A DNA stretch of 64,000 bases from Caprimulgus europaeus (taxonomy: Eukaryota > Chordata > Aves > Caprimulgiformes > Caprimulgidae), in the NCBI GenBank assembly GCA_907165065.1, contig OU015551.1, positions 1,922,001 through 1,986,000 of the forward strand, read 5' to 3'. The position numbers and the translations under genes were made by a program. Every line of letters begins with the position of its first letter. Position 1 is the first letter of the stretch. Shown here piece by piece: positions 3,083-64,000 of this stretch. The notes beneath the pieces are model-generated. The model had not been told where the DNA came from. It did not search any database and saw only the letters and a program-made list of their open reading frames with translations.

Positions 3083-3418
3083 TATTTTATTTATTTTATT
3101 TTATTTTATTTTATTTTATTTTATTTTATTTTATTTTATTTTATTTTATTTTATGTTTTTATTTTATTTTATGCTTTTATTTTATTTTATGTTTTTATTT
3201 TATTTTATGTTTTGTTTTATTTTATTTTATGTTTTGTTTTATTTTATTTTATTTTATTTTATTTTATTTTGTTATTTTATTTTATTTTACTTTATTTTAT
3301 TTTATTTTATTTTATTTTATTTTATTTTATTTTATTTTATTTTATTTTATTTTATTTTATTTTATTTTATTTTATTTTATTTTATTTTATTTTATTTTAT
3401 TTTATTTTATTTTATTTT
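3083..3418. repeat. TTTTA pentanucleotide microsatellite
   Basis: About 335 bp of nearly pure TTTTA units, with some TTTTATG and TTTTGT variants in the middle. It ends 330 bp before the first ATG at 3749. Confidence 0.97.
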
Positions 3419-12800: not shown

Positions 12801-15800
12801 ACGCTGGGATGTGACAGTGATACCTTAGATTTTGAATAACTCTGGTCTGAGCACCTCTTCCTTTCTCCTGCTGTAACAGCACCGAGGCAGAACATCACCC
12901 ATATTAGTTTCCTAGTGGGTGTCAAGCACGAGTGTTACCTAACCAGGTTGGTATGTTTGACAAAAGGAGAATCTTTGGAGGTGACACAACCAACCTGACA
13001 CAACCTGGTCTCTCTGTGGGAGAGACCGTGGAGCCACGGGGTGTGATTGCTGTAAAGGATTATTTAGAGAATGAGCCCCTCCTTAGAAACAATCGAGATG
13101 ATTTGGAACGTTTACTTATACCTCAAGGGAAGGGTAATTCTTTCACGCTGACGAACACACAGGTATTGCATTGTCATTCACTGAGGTGGATGTGGGTGAG
13201 GAGCAGATTTTTCAGGTGCTGCCAATTCAGAAAATCTGACCAAAAAAAAGTATTAATATAGAATGCTTCCATAAAGAGCAATTTGAAAAATGTTTGGCTT
13301 CTTTTTTTTATCATAGAATCATTGAATGGTTTGGGTTGGAAGGGACCTTAAAGCTCATCCAGTCCCAACCCCCCTGCCAGCAGCAGGGACACCTTCCACT
13401 AGACCAGGTTGCTCAAAGCCTCAGCCAGCCTGGCCAAGAACACTTCCAGGGAGGAGCAGCCACAGCTTCTCTGGCCAACTTGGGCCAGGGTCTCACCACC
13501 CTCACACCAAAGAATTTCTCCCTCACATCTCATCTCCATCTCCCCTCTGCCACTTTCAAGCCATCACCCCTTGTTCTGTCACTCCCTGCCCTTGGCCAAA
13601 GTCCCTCCCCAGCCTTCCTGGAGCCCCTTCAGGTACTGGGAGGCCACTGGAAGGTCTCCCTGGAGCCTTCTCTTCTCCAGGCTGAACAGCCCCAACTCTC
13701 TCAGCCTGTCCTCACAGCAGAGCTGCTCCAGCCCTGGCATCATCCTCGTGGCCTCCTCTGCACTGGCTCCAGTAGCTCCATGTCCTTGTGCTGTTGGTGG
13801 CCCCAGCACTGCAGGGGGGGTCTCAGGAGAGCGGAGCAGAGGGGCAGAATCCCCTCCCTGGCCCTGCTGCCCACGCTGCTCTGGGTGCAGCCCAGGACAC
13901 GGTTATTGGCTCTGTGCTGCCAGCGCACGGTGCCGGCTCATGTTGGGCTTCTCCTCCCCCAGCACCCCAAGTCCTTCTCTCCAGAGCTGCTCTCAAGCCA
14001 CTCATCTCCCAGTCTGTATTTGTGCTTGGGACTGCCCTGACCCAGGTGCAGGACCTTGTGTTTGGCCTTGTTGAACTTCATGAGGTTGGCACAGACCCAG
14101 CTCTCAAACCTGTCCAGGTCCCTCTCTGGATGGTGTCCCGTCCCTCCAGCGTGTCAACCGCACCACACAGCTTGGTGTCATCAGCAAACTTGCTGAGGGT
14201 GCATTTTAACCCCTTTAGTGATCCATTTGGGTATCTACTACTGCCTCGACATCTGAGCAGGATGGACATCACTTCACAGTTTGCTCCTCAGTGAAATACA
14301 TCCAAAATCTGGAAATAGTCCAGAGTTCTCAAGAACCTGTTCCAGCAACCTCTGAACACTCAATCCTTGACTCTGTTCCATGGCTTCTGGAAAAGTGGGG
14401 AGGTCAACACCAAGTAGGGATGGGTATGAACATGATTTTTCACTGGGAAGGAATGCATTTGGTTTTTGGGGAACTCTCAACTCATATCTCTACTGCAATA
14501 AGAAGAACATTAGAACTCCCTGCTAAAAATTAACCAGGTCATAAAAAAATGGTTAAAAAGGATCAAAAAGAACAAAATTGTGACAATCCAAATTAATTTG
14601 TTTTTTTGAGAAGAGCTTTTGGCCAAAGGGAAACTTTCAATTATACCAAGTATTTAATCAGATCTTCACCAATAATTGATGTAACCCTTCCCTAAAAGAA
14701 GAAATTAAGTGGGGTTTAGGGGAAATCCTCGGGGGTGGCGGTAAATTCTAATTAAAAAAAAAGCAATTAATGGGTAGCTGTAAACTGAGACTGTGTTTTA
14801 AAGATCATCCATAACAGTTCCCTGCCTTAGGTCCATTTTTTTTCATGATTTCTTTGAAAGACACTCTGTAGAAAGACAAAAACTGGGAAATTTTGTAAAT
14901 ATTTTAGAAGACAAAATTCGAATTCAAATGGTTCTGAAAAAAACCCAAACAAACCAAAAAACCTGATTGTTCTGAGATCCAGTAGATAAAATTGAACCAC
15001 CAAGCAAGCTCAAATGCACATTTTGAGCTGTCAAAACTACGATATTTTCCTTTTTCTTCTCCAAAGTTCTCTCTAGAGAACTAAAAGCTGTACAGGTCTA
15101 TGAATTTGAAAGTAAAAAGAACATAAAAAATTTGGTGTATTTTCAGTTCAAATAGAAAAGGTGCAGAGATCCCTCTCAGACCTCTAAATGGTTCCTCATC
15201 TTTTCTTGTTTGAAACAGATGATAAAGTGGGAATATATTACAAATAAAAAAAGAGACAAAAAACCTGAAAATTATGATTCTGTACCATTAAAAAAAAAGT
15301 AATAAACCAATTTCACATAAAAGAGTTAAATAACAGAAAAATTAGATTTTTCCATACAAAAGTTACTTCACAGAAAGAACACCAAGTGTGCTAAATTATA
15401 GTAATAAAAAGAGTAAAACTATTAAAAACTTGACAAAGAAATCCTTCTTCTTCAATTTCAGACACATCATTCCAAGACACCACCCCCAACACAAAAAATA
15501 GCACAGAAATCACAGCAAAGGCTCTGACTTCAAAACCTCCTGGGAACTCCACAGAGATGCAGAGAAATTCCACAGCAATGAACATCAATGGAACAGTAGG
15601 AAATGAAATTCTGTCTGCAGCAGAAACATCGTCCTCTGCTCCTGGGACAGGCACACAAATTCCCAACACAACGTCAGTCTTCACTCTCAGAACTTCTCCA
15701 GACAACACCTCCACTACTGAGACCACCTCCAGAACTCTCACCACAGCTACACCCACCTCTTCTCAGCAGACAACCTCCACAGCTGCCACTACAGCCATGA

Positions 15801-18800
15801 CAACCCTGCACTCAACCACCGTGGCCACCTCTTCAACACTGGAATCCTCCAGCACAGCCTCCCAAGCCACCTCTGCTCCTCAGACTTCAGCTTCTCCCTC
15901 TTCCACACCTGCACAAACCTCTGCTCTTGGCACAACCTCCACACTCCTCTCCACCACTCCACCAACCTCCAGCCCAGGCTCTGCAACCACCACTGCAGGC
16001 ACTTCCATAACATCTGGAACAACCACTGCTGCTCCTGGCACCACCACAGCTAAAGAGACAACAGCCTCTGCCACCACAGTCCTCCCAGAAACATCCTCCT
16101 CTGCTTCTGGGACAACCACACCACAAGCCACCAGCACCTCACCTTTCACTCCCAAAGCTTCTCCAGACAACACCTCCACTACTGAGACCACCTCCAAAAC
16201 TCTGACCACAGCTACACCCACCTCTTCTCAGCAGACAACCTCCACAGCTGCCACTACAGCCATGACAACCCTGCACTCAACCACCGTGGCCACCTCTTCA
16301 ACACTGGAATCCTCCAGCACGGCCTCCCAAGCCACCTCTGCTCCTCAGACTTCAGCTTCTCCCTCTTCCACACCTGCACAAACCTCTGCTCTTGGCACAA
16401 CCTCCACACTCCTCTCCACCACTCCACCAACCTCCAGCCCAGGCTCTGCAACCACCACTGCAGGCACTTCAGGAGCACCTGGAACAACCACTGCTGCTCC
16501 TGGCACCACCACAGCTAAACAGACAACAGCCTCTGCCACCACAGTCCTCCCAGAAACATCCTCCTCTGCTTCTGGGACAGGCACACTACAAGCCACCACC
16601 ACCTCACCTTTCACTCCCAGCACTTCTCCAGACAACACCTCCACTACTGAGACCACCTCCAAAACCCTGACCACAGCTACACCCACCTCTTCTCAGCAGA
16701 CAACCTCCACAGCTGCCACTACAGCCATGACAACCCTGCACTCAAACACCGTGGCCACCTCTTCAACACTGGAATCCTCCAGCACGGCCTCCCAAGCCAC
16801 CTCTGCTCCTCAGACTTCAGCTTCTCCCTCTTCCACACCTGCACAAACCTCTGCTCTTGGCACAACCTCCACACTCCTCTCCACCACTCCACCAACCTCC
16901 AGCCCAGCCCCTGCAACCACCACTGCAGGCACTTCAGGAGCGCCTGGAACAACCACTGCTGCTCCTGGCACCACCACAGCTAAAGAGACAACAGCCTCTG
17001 CCACCACAGTCCTCCCAGAAACATCCTCCTCTGCTTCTGGGACAAGCACACCACGGGCCACCACCACCCTCAAAACTTCTCCAGACAACACCTCCACTAC
17101 TGAGACCACCTCCAAAACTCTGACCACAGCTACACCCACCTCTTCTCAGCAGACAACCTCCACAGCTGCCACTACAGCCATGACAACCCTGCACTCAACC
17201 ACCGTGGCCACCTCTTCAACACTGGAATCCTCCAGCACGGCCTCCCAAGCCACCTCTGCTCCTCAGACTTCAGCTTCTCCCTCTGCCACACCTGCACAAA
17301 CCTCTGCTCTTGGTACAACCTCCACACTCCTCTCCACCACTCCACCAACCTCCAGCCCAGGCTCTGCAACCACCACTGCAGGCACTTCAGGACCACCTGA
17401 AGGAGCCATTGCTGCTCCTGACACCACCACAGCTCAAGAGACAACAGCCTCTGCCACCAGTGTCCTCCCAGAAACATCCTCCTCTGCTTCTGGGACAGGC
17501 ACACCATGGGCCACCACCACCTCACCTTTCACTCCCAGCACTTCTCCAGACAACACCTCCACTACTGAGACCACCTCCAAATCTCTGACCACAGCTACAC
17601 CCACCTCTTCTCAGCAGACAACCTCCACAGCTGCCACTACAGCCATGACAACCCTGCACTCAACCACCGTGGCCACCTCTTCAACACTGGAATCCTCCAG
17701 CACGGCCTCCCAAGCCACCTCTGCTCCTCAGACTTCAGCTTCTCCCTCTGCCACACCTGCACAAACCTCTGCTCTTGGCACAACCTCCACACTCCTCTCC
17801 ACCACTCCACCAACCTCCAGCCCAGGCTCTGCAACCACCACTGCAGGCACTTCAGGAGCACCTGGAACAACCACTGCTGCTCCTGGCACCACCACAGCTA
17901 AACAGACAACAGCCTCTGCCACCACAGTCCTCCCAGAAACATCCTCCTCTGCTTCTGGGACAGGCACACTACAAGCCACCACCACCTCACCTTTCACTCC
18001 CAGCACTTCTCCAGACAACACCTCCACTACTGAGACCACCTCCAAAACCCTGACCACAGCTACACCCACCTCTTCTCAGCAGACAACCTCCACAGCTGCC
18101 ACTACAGCCATGACAACCCTGCACTCAAACACCGTGGCCACCTCTTCAACACTGGAATCCTCCAGCACGGCCTCCCAAGCCACCTCTGCTCCTCAGACTT
18201 CAGCTTCTCGCTCTTCCACACCTGCACAAACCTCTGCTCTTGGCACAACCTCCACACTCCTCTCCACCACTCCACCAACCTCCAGCCCAGCCTCTGCAGC
18301 CACCACTGCAGGCACTTCCAGAACATCTGGAACAACCACTGCTGCTCCTGGCACCACCACAGCTCAAGAGACAACAGCCTCTGCCACCAGTGTCCTCCCA
18401 GAAACATCCTCCTCTGCTTCTGGGACAACCACACCACGGGCCACCACCACTCTCAGCACTTCTCCAGACAACACCTCCACTACTGAGACCACCTCCAAAA
18501 CTCTGACCACAGCTACACCCACCTCTTCTCAGCAGACAACCTCCACAGCTGCCACTACAGCCATGACAACCCTGCACTCAACCACCGTGGCCACCTCTTC
18601 AACACTGGAATCCTCCAGCACGGCCTCCCAAGCCACCTCTGCTCCTCAGACTTCAGCTTCTCCCTCTTCCACACATGCACAAACCTCTGCTCTTGGCACA
18701 ACCTCCACACTCCTCTCCACCACTCCACCAACCTCCAGCCCAGGCTCTGCAACCACCACTGCAGGCACTTCAGGACCACCTGAAGGAGCCATTGCTGCTC

Positions 18801-21800
18801 CTGACACCACCACAGCTCAAGAGACAACAGCCTCTGCCACCACAGTCCTCCCAGAAACATCCTCCTCTGCTTCTGGGACGAGCACACCACGGGCCACCAC
18901 CACCTCACCTTTCACTCTCAGCACTTCTCCAGACAACACCTCCACTACTGAGACCACCTCCAAAACTCTGACCACAGCTACACCCACCTCTTCTCAGCAG
19001 ACAACCTCCACAGCTGCCACTACAGCCATGACAACCCTGCACTCAACCACCGTGGCCACCTCTTCAACACTGGAATCCTCCAGCACGGCCTCCCAAGCCA
19101 CCTCTGCTCCTCAGACTTCAGCTTCTCCCTCTTCCACACCAGCACAAACCTCTGCTCTTGGCACAACCTCCACACTCCTCTCCACCACTCCACCAACCTC
19201 CAGCCCAGCCTCTGCAGCCACCACTGCAGGCACTTCAGGAGCGCCTGGAACAACCACTGCTGCTCCTGGCACCACCACAGCTAAAGAGACAACAGCCTCT
19301 GCCACCACAGTCCTCCCAGAAACATCCTCCTCTGCTTCTGGGACAACCACACCACAAGCCACCACCACTCTCAGCACTTCTCCAGACAACACCTCCACTA
19401 CTGAGACCACCTCCAAAACTCTGACCACAGCTACACCCACCTCTTCTCAGCAGACAACCTCCACAGCTGCCACTACAGCCATGACAACCCTGCACTCAAC
19501 CACCGTGGCCACCTCTGCCATGGTGGAATCCTCCAGCACGGCCTCCCAAGCCACCTCTGCTTCTCAGACTTCAGCTTCACCCTCTGCCACACCTGCACAA
19601 ACCTCTGCTCTTGGCACAACCTCCACACTCCTCTCCACCACTCCACCAACCTCCAGCCCAGCCTCTGCAGCCACCACTGCAGGCACTTCAGGACCACCTG
19701 GAACAACCACTGCTGCTCCTGACACCACCACAGCTCAAGAGACAACAGCCTCTGCCACCAGTGTCCTCCCAGAAACATCCTCCTCTGCTTCTGGGACAGG
19801 CACACCACGGGCCACCACCACCTCACCTTTCACTCCCAGCACTTCTCCAGACAACACCTCCACTACTGAGACCACCTCCAAAACTCTGACCACAGCTACA
19901 CCCACCTCTTCTCAGCAGACAACCTCCACAGCTGCCACTACAGCCATGACAACCCTGCACTCAACCACCGTGGCCACCTCTTCAACACTGGAATCCTCCA
20001 GCACGGCCTCCCAAGCCACCTCTGCTCCTCAGACTTCAGCTTCACCCTCTTCCACACCTGCACAAACCTCTGCTCTTGGCACAACCTCCACACTCCTCTC
20101 CACCACTCCACCAACCTCCAGCCCAGCCTCTGCAGCCACCACTGCAGGCACTTCCAGAACATCTGGAACAACCACTGCTGCTCCTGGCACCACCACAGCT
20201 CAAGAGACAACAGCCTCTGCCACCACAGTCCTCCCAGAAACATCCTCCTCTGCTTCTGGGACAACCACACCACGGGCCACCACCACTCTCAGCACTTCTC
20301 CAGACAACACCTCCACTACTGAGACCACCTCCAAAACTCTGACCACAGCTACACCCACCTCTTCTCAGCAGACAACCTCCACAGCTGCCACTACAGCCAT
20401 GACAACCCTGCACTCAACCACCGTGGCCACCTCTTCAACACTGGAATCCTCCAGCACGGCCTCCCAAGCCACCTCTGCTCCTCAGACTTCAGCTTCACCC
20501 TCTGCCACACCTGCACAAACCTCTGCTCTTGGCACAACCTCCACACTCCTCTCCACCACTCCACCAACCTCCAGCCCAGCCCCTGCAACCACCACTGCAG
20601 GCACTTCAGGAGCACCTGGAACAACCACCACTGCTGCTCCTGGCACCACCACAGCTCAAGAGACAACAGCCTCTGCCACCACAGTCCTCCCAGAAACATC
20701 CTCCTCTGCTTCTGGGACAACCACACCACAAGCCACCAGCACCTCACCTTTCACTCCCAAAGCTGCTCCAGACAACACCTCCACTACTGAGACCACCTCC
20801 AAAACTCTGACCACAGCTACACCCACCTCTTCTCAGCAGACAACCTCCACAGCTGCCACTACAGCCATGACAACCCTGCACTCAACCACCGTGGCCACCT
20901 CTGCCATGCTGGAATCCTCCAGCACGGCCTCCCAAGCCACCTCTGCTCCTCAGACTTCAGCTTCACCCTCTGCCACACCTGCACAAACCTCTGCTCTTGG
21001 CACAACCTCCACACTCCTCTCCACCACTCCACCAACCTCCAGCCCAGCCTCTGCAGCCACCACTGCAGGCACTTCAGGACCACCTGGAACAACCACTGCT
21101 GCTCCTGGCACCACCACAGCTAAACAGACAACAGCCTCTGCCACCACAGTCCTCCCAGAAACATCCTCCTCTGCTTCTGGGACAACCACACCACAAGCCA
21201 CCACCACCCTCAAAACTTCTCCAGACAACACCTCCACTACTGAGACCACCTCCAAAACTCTGACCACAGCTACACCCACCTCTTCTCAGCAGACAACCTC
21301 CACAGCTGCCACTACAGCCATGACAACCCTGCACTCAACCACCGTGGCCACCTCTTCAACACTGGAATCCTCCAGCACGGCCTCCCAAGCCACCTCTGCT
21401 CCTCAGACTTCAGCTTCTCCCTCTTCCACACCTGCACAAACCTCTGCTCTTGGCACAACCTCCACACTCCTCTCCACCACTCCACCAACCTCCAGCCCAG
21501 CCTCTGCAGCCACCACTGCAGGCACTTCAGGACCACCTGGAACAACCACTGCTGCTCCTGACACCACCACAGCTAAACAGACAACAGCCTCTGCCACCAC
21601 AGTCCTCCCAGAAACATCCTCCTCTGCTACTGGGACAACCACACCACGGGCCACCATCACTCTCAGCAGTTCTCCAGACAACACCTCCACTACTGAGACC
21701 ACCTCCAAAACTCTGACCACAGCTACACCCACCTCTTCTCAGCAGACAACCTCCACAGCTGCCACTACAGTCATGACAACCCTGCACTCAACCACCGTGG

Positions 21801-24800
21801 CCACCTCTGCCATGGTGGAATCCTCCAGCACGGCCTCCCAAGCCACCTCTGCTCCTCAGACTTCAGCTTCTCCCTCTTCCACACCTGCACAAACCTCTGC
21901 TCTTGGCACAACCTCCACACTCCTCTCCACCACTCCACCAACCTCCAGCCCAGCTTCTGCAACCACCACTGCAGGCACTTCCAGAACATCTGGAACAACC
22001 ACTGCTGCTCCTGGCACCACCACAGCTCAAGAGACAACAGCCTCTGCCACCACAGTCCTCCCAGAAACATCCTCCTCTGCTTCTGGGACAACCACACCAT
22101 GGGCCACCACCACTCTCAGCACTTCTCCAGACAACACCTCCACTACTGAGACCACCTCCAAAACTCTGACCACAGCTACACCCACCTCTTCTCAGCAGAC
22201 AACCTCCACAGCTGCCACTACAGCCATGACAACCCTGCACTCAACCACCGTGGCCACCTCTTCAACACTGGAATCCTCCAGCACGGCCTCCCAAGCCACC
22301 TCTGCTCCTCAGACTTCAGCTTCTCCCTCTTCCACACCTGCACAAACCTCTGCTCTTGGCACAACCTCCACACTCCTCTCCACCACTCCACCAACCTCCA
22401 GCCCAGGCTCTGCAACCACCACTGCAGGCACTTCAGGACCACCTGAAGGAGCCATTGCTGCTCCTGACACCACCACAGCTCAAGAGACAACAGCCTCTGC
22501 CACCACAGTCCTCCCAGAAACATCCTCCTCTGCTTCTGGGACAACCACACCACGGGCCACCACCACCCTCAAAACTTCTCCAGACAACACCTCCACTACT
22601 GAGACCACCTCCAAAACTCTAACCACAGCTACACCCACCTCTTCTCAGCAGACAACCTCCACAGCTGCCACTACAGCCATGACAACCCTGCACTCAACCA
22701 CCGTGGCCACCTCTTCAACACTGGAATCCTCCAGCACGGCCTCCCAAGCCACCTCTGCTCCTCAGACTTCAGCTTCACCCTCTGCCACACCTGCACAAAC
22801 CTCTGCTCTTGGCACAACCTCCACACTCCTCTCCACCACTCCACCAACCTCCAGCCCAGCCTCTGCAGCCACCACTGCAGGCACTTCAGGACCACCTGGA
22901 ACAACCACTGCTGCTCCTGGCACCACCACAGCTCAAGAGACAACAGCCTCTGCCACCACAGTCCTCCCAGAAACATCCTCCTCTGCTTCTGGGACAACCA
23001 CACTACAAGCCACCAGCACCTCACCTTTCACTCCCAAAGCTTCTCCAGACAACACCTCCACTACTGAGACCACCTCCAAAACTCTGACCACAGCTACACC
23101 CACCTCTTCTCAGCAGACAACCTCCACAGCTGCCACTACAGCCATGACAACCCTGCACTCAACCACCGTGGCCACCTCTGCCATGCTGGAATCCTCCAGC
23201 ACGGCCTCCCAAGCCACCTCTGCTCCTCAGACTTCAGCTTCACCCTCTGCCACACCTGCACAAACCTCTGCTCTTGGCACAACCTCCACACTCCTCTCCA
23301 CCACTCCATCAACCTCCAGCCCAGCCTCTGCAACCACCACTGCAGGCACTTCCAGAACATCTGGAACAACCACTGCTGCTCCTGGCACCACCACAGCTCA
23401 AGAGACAACAGCCTCTGCCACCACAGTCCTCCCAGAAACATCCTCCTCTGCTTCTGGGACAGGCACACCACGGGCCACCACCACCTCACCTTTCACTCCC
23501 AGCAGTTCTCCAGACAACACCTCCACTACTGAGACCACCTCCAAAACTCTGACCACAGCTACACCCACCTCTTCTCAGCAGACAACCTCCACAGCTGCCA
23601 CTACAGCCATGACAACCCTGCACTCAACCACCGTGGCCACCTCTTCAACACTGGAATCCTCCAGCACGGCCTCCCAAGCCACCTCTGCTCCTCAGACTTC
23701 AGCTTCACCCTCTGCCACACCTGCACAAACCTCTGCTCTTGGCACAACCTCCACACTCCTCTCCACCACTCCACCAACCTCCAGCCCAGCCTCTGCAGCC
23801 ACCACTGCAGGCACTTCAGGACCACCTGGAACAACCACTGCTGCTCCTGGCACCACCACAGCTCAAGAGACAACAGCCTCTGCCACCACAGTCCTCCCAG
23901 AAACATCCTCCTCTGCTTCTGGGACAACCACACTACAAGCCACCACCACCTCACCTTTCACTCCCAAAGCTTCTCCAGACAACACCTCCACTACTGAGAC
24001 CACCTCCAAAACTCTGACCACAGCTACACCCACCTCTTCTCAGCAGACAACCTCCACAGCTGCCACTACAGCCATGACAACCCTGCACTCAACCACCGTG
24101 GCCACCTCTTCAACACTGGAATCCTCCAGCACGGCCTCCCAAGCCACCTCTGCTCCTCAGACTTCAGCTTCTCGCTCTTCCACACCTGCACAAACCTCTG
24201 CTCTTGGCACAACCTCCACACTCCTCTCCACCACTCCACCAACCTCCAGCCCAGCCTCTGCAGCCACCACTGCAGGCACTTCAGGAGCGCCTGGAACAAC
24301 CACTGCTGCTCCTGGCACCACCACAGCTAAAGAGACAACAGCCTCTGCCACCACAGTCCTCCCAGAAACATCCTCCTCTGCTTCTGGGACAACCACACCA
24401 CGGGCCACCACCACCTCACCTTTCACTCCCAAAGCTGCTCCAGACAACACCTCCACTACTGAGACCACCTCCAAAACTCTGACCACAGCTACACCCACCT
24501 CTTCTCAGCAGACAACCTCCACAGCTGCCACTACAGCCATGACAACCCTGCACTCAACCACCGTGGCCACCTCTGCCATGCTGGAATCCTCCAGCACGGC
24601 CTCCCAAGCCACCTCTGCTCCTCAGACTTCAGCTTCACCCTCTGCCACACCTGCACAAACCTCTGCTCTTGGCACAACCTCCACACTCCTCTCCACCACT
24701 CCACCAACCTCCAGCCCAGCCTCTGCAACCACCACTGCAGGCACTTCAGGACCACCTGAGGGAGCCATTGCTGGTCCTGGCACCACCACAGCTAAAGAGA

Positions 24801-27800
24801 CAACAGCCTCTGCCACCACAGTCCTCCCAGAAACATCCTCCTCTGCTTCTGGGACAACCACACCACGGGCCACCACCACTCTCAGCACTTCTCCAGACAA
24901 CACCTCCACTACTGAGACCACCTCCAAAACTCTGACCACAGCTACACCCACCTCTTCTCAGCAGACAACCTCCACAGCTGCCACTACAGCCATGACAACC
25001 CTGCACTCAACCACCGTGGCCACCTCTTCAACACTGGAATCCTCCAGCACGGCCTCCCAAGCCACCTCTGCTCCTCAGACTTCAGCTTCACCCTCTGCCA
25101 CACCTGCACAAACCTCTGCTCTTGGCACAACCTCCACACTCCTCTCCACCACTCCACCAACCTCCAGCCCAGCCTCTGCAGCCACCACTGCAGGCACTTC
25201 CAGAACATCTGGAACAACCACTGCTGCTCTTGGCACCACCACAGCTCAAGAGACAACAGCCTCTGCCACCACAGTCCTCCCAGAAACATCCTCCTCTGCT
25301 TCTGGGAGAACCACACCACGGGCCACCACCACTCCCAGCACTTCTCCAGACAACACCTCCACTACTGAGACCACCTCCAAAACTCTGACCACAGCTACAC
25401 CCACCTCTTCTCAGCAGACAACCTCCACAGCTGCCACTACAGCCATGACAACCCTGCACTCAACCACCGTGGCCACCTCTTCAACACTGGAATCCTCCAG
25501 CACGGCCTCCCAAGCCACCTCTGCTCCTCAGACTTCAGCTTCTCCCTCTTCCACACCTGCACAAACCTCTGCTCTTGGCACAACCTCCACACTCCTCTCC
25601 ACCACTCCACCAACCTCCAGCCCAGCCTCTGCAGCCACCACTGCAGGCACTTCAGGACCACCTGGAACAACCACTGCTGCTCCTGGCACCACCACAGCTA
25701 AAGAGACAACAGCCTCTGCCACCACAGTCCTCCCAGAAACATCCTCCTCTGCTTCTGGGACAACCACACCACGGGCCACCACCACCCTCAAAGCTTCTCC
25801 AGACAACACCTCCACTACTGAGACCACCTCCAAAACTCTGACCACAGCTACACCCACCTCTTCTCAGCAGACAACCTCCACAGCTGCCACTACAGCCATG
25901 ACAACCCTGCACTCAACCACCGTGGCCACCTCTTCAACACTGGAATCCTCCAGCACGGCCTCCCAAGCCACCTCTGCTCCTCAGACTTCAGCTTCACCCT
26001 CTGCCACACCTGCACAAACCTCTGCTCTTGGCACAACCTCCACACTCCTCTCCACCACTCCACCAACCTCCAGCCCAGCCTCTGCAGCCACCACTGCAGG
26101 CACTTCAGGACCACCTGGAACAACCACTGCTGCTCCTGGCACCACCACAGCTAAAGAGACAACAGCCTCTGCCACCACAGTCCTCCCAGAAACATCCTCC
26201 TCTGCTTCTGGGACAACCACACTACAAGCCACCACCACCTCACCTTTCACTCCCAAAGCTTCTCCAGACAACACCTCCACTACTGAGACCACCTCCAAAA
26301 CTCTGACCACAGCTACACCCACCTCTTCTCAGCAGACAACCTCCACAGCTGCCACTACAGCCATGACAACCCTGCACTCAACCACCGTGGCCACCTCTGC
26401 CATGCTGGAATCCTCCAGCACGGCCTCCCAAGCCACCTCTGCTCCTCAGACTTCAGCTTCACCCTCTGCCACACCTGCACAAACCTCTGCTCTTGGCACA
26501 ACCTCCACACTCCTCTCCACCACTCCACCAACCTCCAGCCCAGCCTCTGCAACCACCACTGCAGGCACTTCCAGAACATCTGGAACAACCACTGCTGCTC
26601 CTGGCACCACCACAGCTAAACAGACAACAGCCTCTGCCACCACAGTCCTCCCAGAAACATCCTCCTCTGCTTCTGGGACAGGCACACCACGGGCCACCAC
26701 CACCTCACCTTTCACTCCCAGCAGTTCTCCAGACAACACCTCCACTACTGAGACCACCTCCAAAACTCTGACCACAGCTACACCCACCTCTTCTCAGCAG
26801 ACAACCTCCACAGCTGCCACTACAGCCATGACAACCCTGCACTCAACCACCGTGGCCACCTCTTCAACACTGGAATCCTCCAGAACGGCCTCCCAAGCCA
26901 CCTCTGCTCCTCAGACTTCAGCTTCACCCTCTGCCACACCTGCACAAACCTCTGCTCTTGGCACAACCTCCACACTCCTCTCCACCACTCCACCAACCTC
27001 CAGCCCAGCCTCTGCAGCCACCACTGCAGGCACTTCAGGACCACCTGGAACAACCACTGCTGCTCCTGGCACCACCACAGCGAAAGAGACAACAGCCTCT
27101 GCCACCACAGTCCTCCCAGAAACATCCTCCTCTGCTTCTGGGACAAGCACACCACGGGCCACCACCACCCTCAAAACTTCTCCAGACAACACCTCCACTA
27201 CTGAGACCACCTCCAAAACTCTGACCACAGCTACACCCACCTCTTCTCAGCAGACAACCTCCACAGCTGCCACTACAGCCATGACAACCCTGCACTCAAC
27301 CACCGTGGCCACGTCTGCCATGGTGGAATCCTCCAGCACGGCCTCCCAAGCCACCTCTGCTCCTCAGACTTCAGCTTCTCCCTCTTCCACACCTGCACAA
27401 ACCTCTGCTCTTGGCACAACCTCCACACTCCTCTCCACCACTCCACCAACCTCCAGCCCAGCTTCTGCAACCACCACTGCAGGCACTTCAGGAGCGCCTG
27501 GAACAACCACTGCTGCTCCTGGCACCACCACAGCTAAAGAGACAACAGCCTCTGCCACCAGTGTCCTCCCAGAAACATCCTCCTCTGCTTCTGGGACAAC
27601 CACACCACGGGCCACCACCACTCTCAGCACTTCTCCAGACAACACCTCCACTACTGAGACCACCTCCAAAACTCTGACCACAGCTACACCCACCTCTTCT
27701 CAGCAGACAACCTCCACAGCTGCCACTACAGCCATGACAACCCTGCACTCAACCACCGTGGCCACCTCTTCAACACTGGAATCCTCCAGCACGGCCTCCC

Positions 27801-30800: not shown

Positions 30801-33800
30801 CCTCTGCTTCTGGGACAACCACACACAAGGCCACCACCACCTCACCTTTCACTCCCAAAGCTGCTCCAGACAACACCTCCACTACTGAGACCACCTCCAA
30901 AACTCTGACCACAGCTACACCCACCTCTTCTCAGCAGACAACCTCCACAGCTGCCACTACAGCCATGACAACCCTGCACTCAACCACCGTGGCCACCTCT
31001 GCAACACTGGAATCCTCCAGCACGGCCTCCCAAGCCACCTCTGCTCCTCAGACTTCAGCTTCACCCTCTGCCACACCTGCACAAACCTCTGCTCTTGGCA
31101 CAACCTCCACACTCCTCTCCACCACTCCACCAACCTCCAGCCCAGCCTCTGCAACCACCACTGCAGGCACTTCCAGAACATCTGGAACAACCACTGCTGC
31201 TCCTGGCACCACCACAGCTCAAGAGACAACAGCCTCTGCCACCACAGTCCTCCCAGAAACATCCTCCTCTGCTTCTGGGACAGGCACACCACGGGCCACC
31301 ACCACCTCACCTTTCACTCCCAGCAGTTCTCCAGACAACACCTCCACTACTGAGACCACCTCCAAAACTCTGACCACAGCTACACCCACCTCTTCTCAGC
31401 AGACAACCTCCACAGCTGCCACTACAGCCATGACAACCCTGCACTCAACCACCGTGGCCACCTCTTCAACACTGGAATCCTCCAGCACGGCCTCCCAAGC
31501 CACCTCTGCTCCTCAGACTTCAGCTTCTCCCTCTGCCACACCTGCACAAACCTCTGCTCTTGGCACAACCTCCACACTCCTCTCCACCACTCCACCAACC
31601 TCCAGCCCAGCCTCTGCAACCACCACTGCAGGCACTTCAGGACCACCTGGAACAACCACTGCTGCTCCTGGCACCACCACAGCTAAAGAGACAACAGCCT
31701 CTGCCACCACAGTCCTCCCAGAAACATCCTCCTCTGCTTCTGGGACAGGCACACCACGGGCCACCACCACCTCACCTTTCACTCCCAGCACTTCTCCAGA
31801 CAACACCTCCACTACTGAGACCACCTCCAAAACTCTGACCACAGCTACACCCACCTCTTCTCAGCAGACAACCTCCACAGCTGCCACTACAGCCATGACA
31901 ACCCTGCACTCAACCACCGTGGCCACCTCTTCAACACTGGAATCCTCCAGCACGGCCTCCCAAGCCACCTCTGCTCCTCAGACTTCAGCTTCACCCTCTG
32001 CCACACCTGCACAAACCTCTGCTCTTGGCACAACCTCCACACTCCTCTCCACCACTCCACCAACCTCCAGCCCAGCCTCTGCAGCCACCACTGCAGGCAC
32101 TTCAGGACCACCTGGAACAACCACTGCTGCTCCTGGCACCACCACAGCTCAAGAGACAACAGCCTCTGCCACCACAGTCCTCCCAGAAACATCCTCCTCT
32201 GCTTCTGGGACAACCACACCACGGGCCACCACCACTCTCAGCACTTCTCCAGACAACACCTCCACTACTGAGACCACCTCCAAAACTCTGACCACAGCTA
32301 CACCCACCTCTTCTCAGCAGACAACCTCCACAGCTGCCACTACAGCCATGACAACCCTGCACTCAACCACCGTGGCCACCTCTTCAACACTGGAATCCTC
32401 CAGCACGGCCTCCCAAGCCACCTCTGCTCCTCAGACTTCAGCTTCACCCTCTGCCACACCTGCACAAACCTCTGCTCTTGGCACAACCTCCACACTCCTC
32501 TCCACCACTCCACCAACCTCCAGCCCAGCCTCTGCAGCCACCACTGCAGGCACTTCAGGACCACCTGGAACAACCACTGCTGCTCCTGGCACCACCACAG
32601 CTAAAGAGACAACAGCCTCTGCCACCACAGTCCTCCCAGAAACATCCTCCTCTGCTTCTGGGACAACCACACCACGGGCCACCACCACTCTCAGCACTTC
32701 TCCAGACAACACCTCCACTACTGAGACCACCTCCAAAACTCTGACCACAGCTACACCCACCTCTTCTCAGCAGACAACCTCCACAGCTGCCACTACAGCC
32801 ATGACAACCCTGCACTCAACCACCGTGGCCACCTCTTCAACACTGGAATCCTCCAGCACGGCCTCCCAAGCCACCTCTGCTCCTCAGACTTCAGCTTCTC
32901 GCTCTTCCACACATGCACAAACCTCTGCTCTTGGCACAACCTCCACACTCCTCTCCACCACTCCACCAACCTCCAGCCCAGGCTCTGCAACCACCACTGC
33001 AGGCACTTCAGGACCACCTGAAGGAGCCATTGCTGCTCCTGACACCACCACAGCTCAAGAGACAACAGCCTCTGCCACCACAGTCCTCCCAGAAACATCC
33101 TCCTCTGCTTCTGGGACAAGCACACCATGGGCCACCACCACCTCACCTTTCACTCCCAAAGCTGCTCCAGACAACACCTCCACTACTGAGACCACCTCCA
33201 AAACTCTGACCACAGCTACACCCACCTCTTCTCAGCAGACAACCTCCACAGCTGCCACTACAGCCATGACAACCCTGCACTCAACCACCGTGGCCACCTC
33301 TTCAACACTGGAATCCTCCAGCACGGCCTCCCAAGCCACCTCTGCTCCTCAGACTTCAGCTTCTCCCTCTTCCACACCTGCACAAACCTCTGCTCTTGGC
33401 ACAACCTCCACACTCCTCTCCACCACTCCACCAACCTCCAGCCCAGCCCCTGCAACCACCACTGCAGGCACTTCAGGAGCGCCTGGAACAACCACTGCTG
33501 CTCCTGGCACCACCACAGCTCAAGAGACAACAGCCTCTGCCACCACAGTCCTCCCAGAAACATCCTCCTCTGCTTCTGGGACAACCACACCACGGGCCAC
33601 CACCACTCTCAGCACTTCTCCAGACAACACCTCCACTACTGAGACCACCTCCAAAACTCTCACCACAGCTACACCCACCTCTTCTCAGCAGACAACCTCC
33701 ACAGCTGCCACTACAGCCATGACAACCCTGCACTCAACCACCGTGGCCACCTCTTCAACACTGGAATCCTCCAGCACGGCCTCCCAAGCCACCTCTGCTC

Positions 33801-36800
33801 CTCAGACTTCAGCTTCACCCTCTGCCACACCTGCACAAACCTCTGCTCTTGGCACAACCTCCACACTCCTCTCCACCACTCCACCAACCTCCAGCCCAGC
33901 CTCTGCAGCCACCACTGCAGGCACTTCAGGACCACCTGGAACAACCACTGCTGCTCCTGGCACCACCACAGCTCAAGAGACAACAGCCTCTGCCACCACA
34001 GTCCTCCCAGAAACATCCTCCTCTGCTTCTGGGACAACCACACCATGGGCCACCACCACCTCACCTTTCACTCCCAAAGCTGCTCCAGACAACACCTCCA
34101 CTACTGAGACCACCTCCAAACCTCTGACCACAGGTACACCCACCTCTTCTCAGCAGACAACCTCCACAGCTGCCACTACAGCCATGACAACCCTGCACTC
34201 AACCACCGTGGCCACCTCTTCAACACTGGAATCCTCCAGCACGGCCTCCCAAGCCACCTCTGCTCCTCAGACTTCAGCTTCTCCCTCTTCCACACCTGCA
34301 CAAACCTCTGCTCTTGGCACAACCTCCACACTCCTCTCCACCACTCCACCAACCTCCAGCCCAAGCTCTGCAACCACCACTGCAGGCACTTCAGGACCAC
34401 CTGAAGGAGCCATTGCTGCTCCTGACACCACCACAGCTAAAGAGACAACAGCCTCTGCCACCACAGTCCTCCCAGAAACATCCTCCTCTGCTTCTGGGAC
34501 AAGCACACCATGGGCCACCACCACCTCACCTTTCACTCCCAAAGCTGCTCCAGACAACACCTCCACTACTGAGACCACCTCCAAACCTCTGACCACAGCT
34601 ACACCCACCTCTTCTCAGCAGACAACCTCCACAGCTGCCACTACAGCCATGACAACCCTGCACTCAACCACCGTGGCCACCTCTTCAACACTGGAATCCT
34701 CCAGCACGGCCTCCCAGTCCACCTCTGCTCCTCAGACTTCAGCTTCACCCTCTGCCACACCTGCACAAACCTCTGCTCTTGGCACAACCTCCACACTCCT
34801 CTCCACCACTCCACCAACCTCCAGCCCAGCCTCTGCAGCCACCACTGCAGGCACTTCAGGACCACCTGGAACAACCACTGCTGCTCCTGGCACCACCACA
34901 GCTCAAGAGACAACAGCCTCTGCCACCACAGTCCTCCCAGAAACATCCTCCTCTGCTTCTGGGACAAGCACACCACGGGCCACCACCACCCTCAAAACTT
35001 CTCCAGACAACACCTCCACTACTGAGACCACCTCCAAAACTCTGACCACAGCTACACCCACCTCTTCTCAGCAGACAACCTCCACAGCTGCCACTACAGC
35101 CATGACAACCCTGCACTCAACCACCGTGGCCACCTCTTCAACACTGGAATCCTCCAGCACGGCCTCCCAAGTCACCTCTGCTCCTCAGACTTCAGCTTCA
35201 CCCTCTGCCACACCTGCACAAACCTCTGCTCTTGGCACAACCTCCACACTCCTCTCCACCACTCCACCAACCTCCAGCCCAGCCTCTGCAGCCACCACTG
35301 CAGGCACTTCAGGACCACCTGGAACAACCACTGCTGCTCCTGGGACCACCACAGCGAAAGAGACAACAGCCTCTGCCACCACAGTCCTCCCAGAAACATC
35401 CTCCTCTGCTTCTGGGACAACCACACTACAAGCCACCACTACCTCACCTTTCACTCCCAAAGCTTCTCCAGACAACACCTCCACTACTGAGACCACCTCC
35501 AAAACTCTGACCACAGCTACACCCACCTCTTCTCAGCAGACAACCTCCACAGCTGCCACTACAGCCATGACAACCCTGCACTCAACCACCGTGGCCACCT
35601 CTGCCATGGTGGAATCCTCCAGCACGGCCTCCCAAGCCACCTCTGCTCCTCAGACTTCAGCTTCACCCTCTGCCACACCTGCACAAACCTCTGCTCTTGG
35701 TACAACCTCCACACTCCTCTCCACCACTCCACCAACCTCCAGCCCAGCCTCTGCAACCACCACTGCAGGCACTTCAGGACCACCTGAAGGAGCCATTGCT
35801 GGTCCTGGCACCACCACAGCTAAAGAGACAACAGCCTCTGCCACCAGTGTCCTCCCAGAAACATCCTCCTCTGCTTCTGGGACAGGCACACCACGGGCCA
35901 CCACCACCTCACCTTTCACTCCCAAAGCTGCTCCAGACAACACCTCCACTACTGAGACCACCTCCAGAACTCTGACCACAGCTACACCCACCTCTTCTCA
36001 GCAGACAACCTCCACAGCTGCCACTACAGCCATGACAACCCTGCACTCAACCACCGTGGCCACCTCTGCCATGCTGGAATCCTCCAGCACGGCCTCCCAG
36101 TCCACCTCTGCTCCTCAGACTTCAGCTTCACCCTCTGCCACACCTGCACAAACCTCTGCTCTTGGCACAACCTCCACACTCCTCTCCACCACTCCACCAA
36201 CCTCCAGCCCAGCCTCTGCAGCCACCACTGCAGGCACTTCAGGACCACCTGGAACAACCACTGCTGCTCCTGGCACCACCACAGCGAAAGAGACAACAGC
36301 CTCTGCCACCACAGTCCTCCCAGAAACATCCTCCTCTGCTTCTGGGACAACCACACCACGGGCCTCCACCACCTCACCTTTCACTCCCAGCACTTCTCCA
36401 GACAACACCTCCACTACTGAGACCACCTCCAAAACTCTGACCACAGCTACACCCACCTCTTCTCAGCAGACAACCTCCACAGCTGCCACTACAGCCATGA
36501 CAACCCTGCACTCAACCACCGTGGCCACCTCTTCAACACTGGAATCCTCCAGCACGGCCTCCCAAGCCACCTCCGCTCCTCAGACTTCAGCTTCACCCTC
36601 TGCCACACCTGCACAAACCTCTGCTCTTGGCACAACCTCCACACTCCTCTCCACCACTCCACCAACCTCCAGCCCAGCCTCTGCAACCACCACTGCAGGC
36701 ACTTCAGGAGCACCTGGAACAACCACTGCTGCTCCTGGCACCACCACAGCTAAAGAGACAACAGCCTCTGCCACCACAGTCCTCCCAGAAACATCCTCCT

Positions 36801-39800
36801 CTGCTTCTGGGACAAGCACACCACAAGCCACCACCACCTCACCTTTTACTCCCAAAGCTTCTCCAGACAACACCTCCACTACTGAGACCACCTCCAAAAC
36901 TCTGACCACAGCTACACCCACCTCTTCTCAGCAGACAACCTCCACAGCTGCCACTACAGCCATGACAACCCTGCACTCAACCACCGTGGCCACCTCTTCA
37001 ACACTGGAATCCTCCAGCACGGCCTCCCAAGCCACCTCTGCTCCTCAGACTTCAGCTTCTCCCTCTTCCACACCTGCACAAACCTCTGCTCTTGGCACAA
37101 CCTCCACACTCCTCTCCACCACTCCACCAACCTCCAGCCCAAGCTCTGCAACCACCACTGCAGGCACTTCAGGACCACCTGAAGGAGCCATTGCTGCTCC
37201 TGACACCACCACAGCTCAAGAGACAACAGCCTCTGCCACCACAGTCCTCCCAGAAACATCCTCCTCTGCTTCTGGGACAAGCACACCATGGGCCACCACC
37301 ACCTCACCTTTCACTCCCAAAGCTGCTCCAGACAACACCTCCACTACTGAGACCACCTCCAAACCTCTGACCACAGCTACACCCACCTCTTCTCAGCAGA
37401 CAACCTCCACAGCTGCCACTACAGCCATGACAACCCTGCACTCAACCACCGTGGCCACCTCTTCAACACTGGAATCCTCCAGCACGACCTCCCAGTCCAC
37501 CTCTGCTCCTCAGACTTCAGCTTCACCCTCTGCCACACCTGCACAAACCTCTGCTCTTGGCACAACCTCCACACTCCTCTCCACCACTCCACCAACCTCC
37601 AGCCCAGCCTCTGCAGCCACCACTGCAGGCACTTCAGGACCACCTGGAACAACCACTGCTGCTCCTGGCACCACCACAGCTCAAGAGACAACAGCCTCTG
37701 CCACCACAGTCCTCCCAGAAACATCCTCCTCTGCTTCTGGGACAACCACACCACGGGCCACCACCACCCTCAAAACTTCTCCAGAAAACACCTCCACTAC
37801 TGAGACCACCTCCAAAACTCTGACCACAGCTACACCCACCTCTTCTCAGCAGACAACCTCCACAGCTGCCACTACAGCCATGACAACCCTGCACTCAACC
37901 ACCGTGGCCACCTCTTCAACACTGGAATCCTCCAGCACGGCCTCCCAAGTCACCTCTGCTCCTCAGACTTCAGCTTCACCCTCTGCCACACCTGCACAAA
38001 CCTCTGCTCTTGGCACAACCTCCACACTCCTCTCCACCACTCCACCAACCTCCAGCCCAGCCTCTGCAGCCACCACTGCAGGCACTTCAGGACCACCTGG
38101 AACAACCACTGCTGCTCCTGGCACCACCACAGCGAAAGAGACAACAGCCTCTGCCACCACAGTCCTCCCAGAAACATCCTCCTCTGCTTCTGGGACAACC
38201 ACACTACAAGCCACCACTACCTCACCTTTCACTCCCAAAGCTTCTCCAGACAACACGTCCACTACTGAGACCACCTCCAAAACTCTGACCACAGCTACAC
38301 CCACCTCTTCTCAGCAGACAACCTCCACAGCTGCCACTACAGCCATGACAACCCTGCACTCAACCACCGTGGCCACCTCTGCCATGGTGGAATCCTCCAG
38401 CACGGCCTCCCAAGCCACCTCTGCTCCTCAGACTTCAGCTTCACCCTCTGCCACACCTGCACAAACCTCTGCTCTTGGCACAACCTCCACACTCCTCTCC
38501 ACCACTCCACCAACCTCCAGCCCAGCCTCTGCAACCACCACTGCAGGCACTTCAGGACCACCTGAAGGAGCCATTGCTGGTCCTGGCACCACCACAGCTA
38601 AAGAGACAACAGCCTCTGCCACCACAGTCCTCCCAGAAACATCCTCCTCTGCTTCTGGGACAGGCACACCACGGGCCACCACCACCTCACCTTTCACTCC
38701 CAAAGCTGCTCCAGACAACACCTCCACTACTGAGACCACCTCCAGAACTCTGACCACAGCTACACCCACCTCTTCTCAGCAGACAACCTCCACAGCTGCC
38801 ACTACAGCCATGACAACCCTGCACTCAACCACCGTGGCCACCTCTTCAACACTGGAATCCTCCAGCACGGCCTCCCAAGCCACCTCTGCTCCTCAGACTT
38901 CAGCTTCACCCTCTGCCACACCTGCACAAACCTCTGCTCTTGGCACAACCTCCACACTCCTCTCCACCACTCCACCAACCTCCAGCCCAGCCTCTGCAGC
39001 CACCACTGCAGGCACTTCAGGAGCACCTGGAACAACCACTGCTGCTCCTGGCACCACCACAGCTAAAGAGACAACAGCCTCTGCCACCACAGTCCTCCCA
39101 GAAACATCCTCCTCTGCTTCTGGGACAAGCACACCACAAGCCACCACCACCTCACCTTTACTCCCAAAGCTTCTCCAGACAACACCTCCACTACTGAGAC
39201 CACCTCCAAAACTCTGACCACAGCTACACCCACCTCTTCTCAGCAGACAACCTCCACAGCTGCCACTACAGCCATGACAACCCTGCACTCAACCACCGTG
39301 GCCACCTCTTCAACACTGGAATCCTCCAGCACGGCCTCCCAAGCCACCTCTGCTCCTCAGACTTCAGCTTCTCCCTCTGCCACACCTGCACAAACCTCTG
39401 CTCTTGGCACAACCTCCACACTCCTCTCCACCACTCCACCAACCTCCAGCCCAAGCTCTGCAACCACCACTGCAGGCACTTCAGGACCACCTGAAGGAGC
39501 CATTGCTGCTCCTGACACCACCACAGCTCAAGAGACAACAGCCTCTGCCACCACAGTCCTCCCAGAAACATCCTCCTCTGCTTCTGGGACAAGCACACCA
39601 TGGGCCACCACCACCTCACCTTTCACTCCCAAAGCTGCTCCAGACAACACCTCCACTACTGAGACCACCTCCAAAACTCTGACCACAGCTACACCCACCT
39701 CTTCTCAGCAGACAACCTCCACAGCTGCCACTACAGCCATGACAACCCTGCACTCAACCACCGTGGCCACCTCTTCAACACTGGAATCCTCCAGCACGGC

Positions 39801-42800
39801 CTCCCAGTCCACCTCTGCTCCTCAGACTTCAGCTTCACCCTCTGCCACACCTGCACAAACCTCTGCTCTTGGCACAACCTCCACACTCCTCTCCACCACT
39901 CCACCAACCTCCAGCCCAGCCTCTGCAGCCACCACTGCAGGCACTTCAGGACCACCTGGAACAACCACTGCTGCTCCTGGCACCACCACAGCTCAAGAGA
40001 CAACAGCCTCTGCCACCACAGTCCTCCCAGAAACATCCTCCTCTGCTTCTGGGACAAGCACACCACGGGCCACCACCACCCTCAAAACTTCTCCAGACAA
40101 CACCTCCACTACTGAGACCACCTCCAAAACTCTGACCACAGCTACACCCACCTCTTCTCAGCAGACAACCTCCACAGCTGCCACTACAGCCATGACAACC
40201 CTGCACTCAACCACCGTGGCCACCTCTTCAACACTGGAATCCTCCAGCACGGCCTCCCAAGTCACCTCTGCTCCTCAGACTTCAGCTTCACCCTCTGCCA
40301 CACCTGCACAAACCTCTGCTCTTGGCACAACCTCCACACTCCTCTCCACCACTCCACCAACCTCCAGCCCAGCCTCTGCAGCCACCACTGCAGGCACTTC
40401 AGGACCACCTGGAACAACCACTGCTGCTCCTGGGACCACCACAGCGAAAGAGACAACAGCCTCTGCCACCACAGTCCTCCCAGAAACATCCTCCTCTGCT
40501 TCTGGGACAACCACACTACAAGCCACCACTACCTCACCTTTCACTCCCAAAGCTTCTCCAGACAACACCTCCACTACTGAGACCACCTCCAAAACTCTGA
40601 CCACAGCTACACCCACCTCTTCTCAGCAGACAACCTCCACAGCTGCCACTACAGCCATGACAACCCTGCACTCAACCACCGTGGCCACCTCTGCCATGGT
40701 GGAATCCTCCAGCACGGCCTCCCAAGCCACCTCTGCTCCTCAGACTTCAGCTTCACCCTCTGCCACACCTGCACAAACCTCTGCTCTTGGCACAACCTCC
40801 ACACTCCTCTCCACCACTCCACCAACCTCCAGCCCAGCCTCTGCAACCACCACTGCAGGCACTTCAGGACCACCTGAAGGAGCCATTGCTGGTCCTGGCA
40901 CCACCACAGCTAAAGAGACAACAGCCTCTGCCACCAGTGTCCTCCCAGAAACATCCTCCTCTGCTTCTGGGACAGGCACACCACGGGCCACCACCACCTC
41001 ACCTTTCACTCCCAAAGCTGCTCCAGACAACACCTCCACTACTGAGACCACCTCCAGAACTCTGACCACAGCTACACCCACCTCTTCTCAGCAGACAACC
41101 TCCACAGCTGCCACTACAGCCATGACAACCCTGCACTCAACCACCGTGGCCACCTCTTCAACACTGGAATCCTCCAGCACGGCCTCCCAGTCCACCTCTG
41201 CTCCTCAGACTTCAGCTTCACCCTCTGCCACACCTGCACAAACCTCTGCTCTTGGCACAACCTCCACACTCCTCTCCACCACTCCACCAACCTCCAGCCC
41301 AGCCTCTGCAACCACCTCTACAGGCACTTCAGGAGCACCTGGAACAACCACTGCTGCTCCTGGCACCACCACAGCTAAAGAGACAACAGCCTCTGCCACC
41401 ACAGTCCTCCCAGAAACATCCTCCTCTGCTTCTGGGACAAGCACACCACAAGCCACCACCACCTCACCTTTTACTCCCAAAGCTTCTCCAGACAACACCT
41501 CCACTACTGAGACCACCTCCAAAACTCTGACCACAGCTACACCCACCTCTTCTCAGCAGACAACCTCCACAGCTGCCACTACAGCCATGACAACCCTGCA
41601 CTCAACCACCGTGGCCACCTCTTCAACACTGGAATCCTCCAGCACGGCCTCCCAAGCCACCTCTGCTCCTCAGACTTCAGCTTCTCCCTCTTCCACACCT
41701 GCACAAACCTCTGCTCTTGGCACAACCTCCACACTCCTCTCCACCACTCCACCAACCTCCAGCCCAGCCTCTGCAGCCACCACTGCAGGCACTTCAGGAC
41801 CACCTGGAACAACCACTGGTTTTCTTATAACCCCCACATTTCCAGGTACAACAGACACACCCAGTATTATTTTTCTGATATTAAATTTATATCTGGAATG
41901 TGGATATTTAATAATTTTTATGTGGCAACGCACCTGATGGTTGATAAAATTAAATGATTTTTTATTGCCTTGTTCCTTCATAGGGTGTTCAATATTCAGT
42001 GCAATGTTATATCACGTTCCAGATTAAGGCAACAGAATATTTGCTTTTTATAGATATCTTATAATTAAGTGATAAAAATATAATTGAGATTTAAGCTATT
42101 GTAGCATTTCGTAAATATTTAAAAGACCAAATATAAGGTCTTTTTGTTTTGTAGAACTTGAATGGATTAAAAACAGGCTCCTTCATTTGACCCAGAGCCT
42201 TGACACCCCGGCTCTTGCATTTTGTCACTCTCCATCTGTGCTTCTTGCAGCTCCCAGCCACCCACCAACAACAGCTGCAGCCCTTCAGCATTTCACCATC
42301 AACTTCACCATCACCAATCTCCCCTACAAATCTGCCCTGGCAACTCCTGGCTCAGCCAAGTTCAACGCTACGAGGAGAGTCATGGACACCTTGGTAAGCA
42401 GCACACTAAACAGACATGGATGCTGTCTCTTATGGCCCCATAACCTTAGGTGAAGTGCAAGGAGGTGTCCAGGGCTTAACCTTGAAACCTCTCTCCTTGG
42501 CAGCTCAACCGCCTCCTGAAGGAGAGCAGCATTGGCCCCGCTTTCCTGGGATGTGAAACAACAGCCTTCAGGTATGGGTCACACCTGTGTGTCCCTTTGC
42601 CCATCCCACCATCAGTTTTGAGGACTCATCACCCTCATTCTCTGCTGCTGCATCAACTAAGGACACAGAATCTCCACCCTGACACTCTCCTGCCTTAGGA
42701 CCTTCTCCCCAATTCCCTTATTTGCCTTGGGACCTTCTCCCTGATGCACTTCATGCCACAGAACCTTCTCCCCAAGGCCCTTCCTTACAGCCTTACAGCC

Positions 42801-63877: not shown

Positions 63878-64000
63878 GTAAGTGGTTGAGCTGGGATTTG
63901 ATTTGAGGAGGAATTGAGTTACTCCATAAACCACAGAAACAATAAAACCTGTAGAGAGAGGGCAAAAGCAAACACCAACCAAAGCAGAGGAGCCACCAAC

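Follow-up and report, generated by a model that had tools for sequence, protein, structure and literature searches.

In chicken, Muc16 lies on chromosome 28 and encodes a PTS domain together with four or more SEA domains (Lang, Hansson and Samuelsson 2006, PMC1552070), and in bobwhite and scaled quail a putative segmental duplication overlaps genes with MUC16 homology (PMC5592930). Among human mucins, MUC16 is described as having the most degenerate VNTR exon, whose three alleles differ by 3–6 bp; MUC4 has alleles of up to 27,843 bp, and the largest human exon is reported to be that of MUC12 (PMC13345508, preprint). The chicken gene is already published, as is the fact that giant repeat exons are common in mucins, and a search of one library for a published repeat-unit description of bird MUC16 found none in the titles and text shown, among the matches listed.

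Here we describe a 64,000-nt stretch of the Caprimulgus europaeus genome (OU015551.1, 1,922,001–1,986,000, plus strand, assembly GCA_907165065.1; hereafter, the window, in whose coordinates all positions are given), with searches extended to the whole genome of 1.178 Gb in 121 contigs, in which exons of alpha-A-type and other alpha globins agree with an avian source. By its sequence, the gene at this locus is a MUC16 orthologue, encoding a tethered mucin, and its giant exon is of an ordinary sort for mucins save for one break of the reading frame near its end. The MUC16 stalk of a bird is fully assembled here, and the frame break marks a specific point that raw reads could decide. Very probably, the locus is MUC16 with an O-glycosylated repeat stalk in one giant exon, SEA domains and a membrane anchor, the copy number of the stalk shifting by unequal exchange and gene conversion, and the break being likeliest a sequence error.

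The identity of the gene is carried by its SEA region, where 14 near-identical MUC16-type SEA repeats of about 1.25–1.37 kb and four exons each occupy 42251–60045 on the plus strand (Pfam SEA and PDB Mucin-16 matches; the 3′ end is set from motif positions and is therefore approximate). When a SEA domain is joined from three exons of the first repeat, it matches the Mucin-16 chains 8vm1, 8gkl and 7sa9 at E-values from 1e-37 to 4e-36 (best, 1.2e-37); with a threshold of E 0.01, the PDB gave four matches in all, the fourth being 1ivz, a RIKEN hypothetical protein (E 7e-22). Pfam SEA was detected in 7 of 10 window proteins scanned, 4 of them above the curated cut-off, and 17 of the 20 SEA matches listed for the whole genome fall in the MUC16 gene. 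The splice sites at the start and end of exons A, B and C are present in 14/14 repeats and the small fourth exon, D, in 13/14, the last repeat having no recognised fourth exon. About seven diverged SEA domains follow, for about 21 in all: the first two, found by Pfam and motif scan, have start motifs at 60683 and 62965 (60683–64000, plus strand), and beyond the end of the window the same strand has later start motifs at 64814, 66009, 67449, 69403 and 71732. C-terminal to the last SEA domain, also beyond the window, a hydrophobic segment that appears transmembrane-like by eye follows an acceptor at 73678; we take it to resemble the human MUC16 segment.

The SEA repeats, too, form a tandem array, in which units of about 1,365 and 1,252 bp (exons and introns together) mostly alternate, which suggests that SEA number has also grown recently. 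The 13 repeats measured span 1.25–1.37 kb with a mean DNA identity of 89%, and repeats two apart (lag 2, 90.5%) are more alike than neighbours (lag 1, 88.6%). At the other end of the gene, four weak candidates for a signal-peptide first exon with a phase-1 donor lie upstream of the array, among them 9674–9750 and 6840–6901. The surroundings also hold a dispersed repeat (13301–13900, 2466–2911, 8659–9206 and numerous sites further upstream, as far as about −38 kb), of which several copies upstream of MUC16 are about 92–97% identical and more diverged copies lie on both sides, and tandem arrays of a 20-bp unit (29 copies, 5422–6005), of TATTT (67 copies, 3083–3418) and of a 22-bp unit (11 copies, 61479–61721). 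A search of the 64-kb window for RNA families gave no match.

Directly upstream of the SEA repeats, on the same strand, lies a Ser/Thr-rich region with no SEA domain inside it. Open frames and a donor scan place it in a giant PTS (mucin) exon at 15462–41845, measuring 26,384 nt from splice site to splice site as assembled, with an acceptor (TTTCAG/ACA) at 15461/15462 and a donor (CCAG/GTACAA) at 41845/41846. In translation, the exon opens with a non-repeated leader rich in Asn, Ser and Thr (15462–15620, plus strand), which grades into a diverged first repeat; no Pfam family matched the leader and first array units at E 1. From there, TRF reports 56.9 tandem copies of period 465 (15621–41818), and together with unit spacings and a genome-wide 30-mer search this resolves into 57 tandem units, mostly of 465 bp (155 aa) or 453 bp (151 aa). 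The spacings between the 57 unit cores are 465 bp in 33 cases, 453 bp in 21, and 468 and 464 bp in one case each. Across the whole genome, the conserved 30-mer has 57 matches at up to two mismatches (56 perfect, 1 with one mismatch), every one on the plus strand within the MUC16 exon, and the reversed 30-mer has none.

Pairwise identity between units ranges from 92.9 to 100% with a mean of 96.5% (from 55 units, as the first and last of the 57 were excluded here and in the order analyses below), so the 57 near-identical mucin repeats of the original prediction stand. So does its figure of about 55% Ser plus Thr per unit: we count 4,734 of 8,794 residues (54%), counted after joining the two frames, so that some 13 codons around the joint are out of frame. 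The units contain no Cys. The genomic sequence places Ser/Thr/Pro tandem repeats in one large exon, and the downstream SEA matches to Pfam and to PDB Mucin-16 bear out the proposal that the array is the Ser/Thr-rich domain that precedes SEA in MUC16. When the unit was compared with the 144 kb around the array, with the array masked, no protein match was found at E 1 and DNA matches were weak, the best (E 1e-4) falling on a minisatellite near 79.5 kb. This minisatellite, at about 79.4–79.8 kb beyond the window, can be read on the plus strand as Thr/Ser/Pro repeats and lies about 5.8 kb past the transmembrane-like segment, probably outside the MUC16 gene.

With this mean identity of 96.5%, the array is freshly homogenised. 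Unit order matters: the similarity at lags 3, 5 and 11 was reached by 0, 1 and 0 of 2,000 order shuffles, respectively. Adjacent units resemble each other slightly less than units paired at random do (in 1,981 of 2,000 shuffles the similarity equalled or exceeded the observed value), which argues that single-unit duplication has not been the main recent process. All four combinations of variants occur in 391 of 561 variable-site pairs, a count inflated by the inclusion of indel-linked columns, and the variable sites cluster, leaving one stretch of 47 bases without any variant (P 0.003 when columns are shuffled, a figure helped by clumped indel columns). The order pattern, the four-gamete counts and the clustering fit repeated block duplication together with exchange among units.

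A pair of five-unit blocks lies near the end of the exon, where units 45–49 (36809–39121, plus strand) are the source or sister of units 50–54 (39122–41433, plus strand), with 1, 2, 3, 3 and 5 substitutions between the respective partners. Further, units 41 and 52 are identical and units 40–42, 46–48 and 51–53 are nearly so. Such near-identical blocks are places where assemblers err, and an assembler that expanded or collapsed the array would make 57 an incorrect count. We consider this improbable, as most block copies have differences of their own, unit 50 has its own deletion, and no other contig was found to carry the array a second time.

That deletion, a single base missing relative to the other units at 39159/39160, shifts the reading frame. 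The frame in which the array starts is open from 15434 to 39214 (7,927 codons) and ends at a TGA (39215–39217, plus strand), the first in-frame stop past the deletion; downstream of the break, a second frame is open from 39067 to 41934. The shortened motif occurs once, in unit 50, compared with 31 copies of the full-length motif, and the remaining 55 unit spacings are all multiples of three. Because the exon as assembled measures 26,384 nt, the phases of its two ends mismatch; with the missing base restored it measures 26,385 nt and 8,794 codons, with matching phase-1 ends. The predicted single 26.4-kb coding exon is therefore supported in part: its splice boundaries and near absence of internal donors (below) agree, but the proposed open frame of about 8,800 codons is interrupted by this one break, and the copy as assembled cannot encode the whole protein.

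Comparison of the sister blocks bears on the age of the break. Apart from the deletion, which unit 45 does not carry, a single substitution separates units 50 and 45. The deletion therefore seems to postdate the most recent duplication of a five-unit block and, provided that unit 45 has not been repaired by conversion in the meantime, would rank among the latest changes in the array. This seeming youth points either to an error in the sequence or to a truncating variant of very recent origin, and of these a sequence error is most likely and our first choice, a private null allele being the second. If the deletion were real, this haplotype would have a recent truncating MUC16 allele, giving a stalk of about 7,900 residues without SEA domains or membrane anchor, or a transcript that is degraded. 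The lost base is the C in TTTCAC, outside any long homopolymer, and its absence from unit 50 but not from the near-identical unit 45 is what a new mutation would produce. However, splice sites look intact across the 14 SEA repeats, every other spacing in the array keeps the frame, and in long-read human haplotypes broken mucin frames are a minority, with 94.8–100% kept and 84.8% for MUC1 (PMC13345508); for MUC1, the authors blame likely sequencing error (PMC13345508). A real deletion is thus possible but rather unlikely. We give almost no credence to a bypass of the deletion by −1 ribosomal frameshifting, for which a slippery-type heptamer, CCCAAAG, lies in the right phase at 39163, between the deletion and the stop; this heptamer belongs to the ordinary unit and is found 24 times in the exon, which makes its presence here unremarkable. 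Whatever the origin of the break, a review notes that the absence of frameshifts from coding repeats lacks formal tests (PMC12776774), and the present array, where 55 spacings keep the frame and one breaks it, is a small data point on that question.

We also compared the differences among units with those expected without selection, using 384 of the 465 sites, with 56 variants (81 sites next to indels were dropped). Among these variants, which are not independent of one another, the numbers of synonymous changes (19 against 17.0 expected) and of non-synonymous changes are close to those expected in the absence of selection. Changes that lose Ser or Thr are fewer than expected (9 against 14.3, P 0.05, one of several classes), changes that gain Ser or Thr number 8 against 5.1, and stop variants, at 0 against 0.9 expected, are uninformative. 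These counts weakly suggest selection on the frame and on Ser/Thr content, and not on individual residues.

The single giant exon is accompanied by a scarcity of splice donors. Its 26,384 nt contain 154 GT dinucleotides and only two donor-like sites scoring at least 6 of 9 (one at 7, none at 8 or 9), compared with 115 such sites in the 15,461 nt upstream and 176 in the 22,155 nt downstream. The GT count of the unit (2) is low against composition-weighted codons (7.9 expected, P 0.002), but not against shuffles of its own synonymous codons (3.1 expected, P 0.24), and we rejected donor avoidance as a separate selection on the latter result. Instead, GT scarcity follows largely from codon content: the NCN codons for Ser, Thr, Pro and Ala hold no GT, and NCG codons are avoided in the unit, which removes most GT across codon borders. 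Elsewhere in the genome the effect is partial, as depletion is weaker in two other mucin-like frames that adjoin VWD matches and resemble gel-forming mucins: a 15.1-kb Ser/Thr-rich ORF (33% Ser plus Thr) has 2.9 donors of score 6 or more per kb against 9.8 in the rest of its stretch, and a 2.8-kb ORF (51% Ser plus Thr) has 5.1 against 10.5. The 15.1-kb frame (within C15:16711001–16730000, minus strand) is open throughout in the assembly and is apparently a second giant mucin exon in this genome. The scarcity suggests a simple reason for single giant mucin repeat exons, namely that almost no splice donors can arise in them. Our tentative proposal, which we think somewhat less probable than its negation, is that codons keep mucin exons free of donors, near totally here, such that unequal exchange can lengthen the exon freely, and that the array now turns over fast in this bird where that of human MUC16 is nearly frozen.

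As a working model, O-glycans set densely along the stalk, on as many as about 4,700 Ser/Thr residues, would hold it as an extended brush, which the SEA and transmembrane parts would anchor. Unequal exchange and gene conversion would alter copy number in steps of one to several units, and with changes in unit steps, birds of this species should differ in stalk length.

Chicken Muc16 and this locus share their order of parts, several SEA domains coming after a PTS domain, and lie on chromosome 28 and on a 6.26-Mb contig, respectively; the chicken gene differs in its at least four SEA domains, compared with 57 units and about 21 SEA domains here, and the text seen of PMC1552070 does not describe its repeat unit. 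Human MUC4 and MUC12 likewise are tethered mucins with a single giant repeat exon of variable length. They are other genes, MUC4 having a VWD instead of an SEA domain (PMC1552070), and their longest alleles exceed the exon described here (PMC13345508), so that ‘extreme even for mucins’, as the original prediction had it, is too strong. Human MUC16 has the same overall plan, with a large glycosylated N-terminal domain, SEA repeats (19 in the revised model) and a membrane-spanning region (PMC10829539, PMC13345508), and its SEA sequence is clearly homologous to the one here. Human SEA repeats include a Pro/Ser/Thr-rich linker, which is short here. The clear contrast between the human and bird MUC16 stalks is in the freshness of the repeats: the human array is reported as degenerate and nearly invariant in length, whereas the units here are 96.5% identical on average and bear fresh block duplications.
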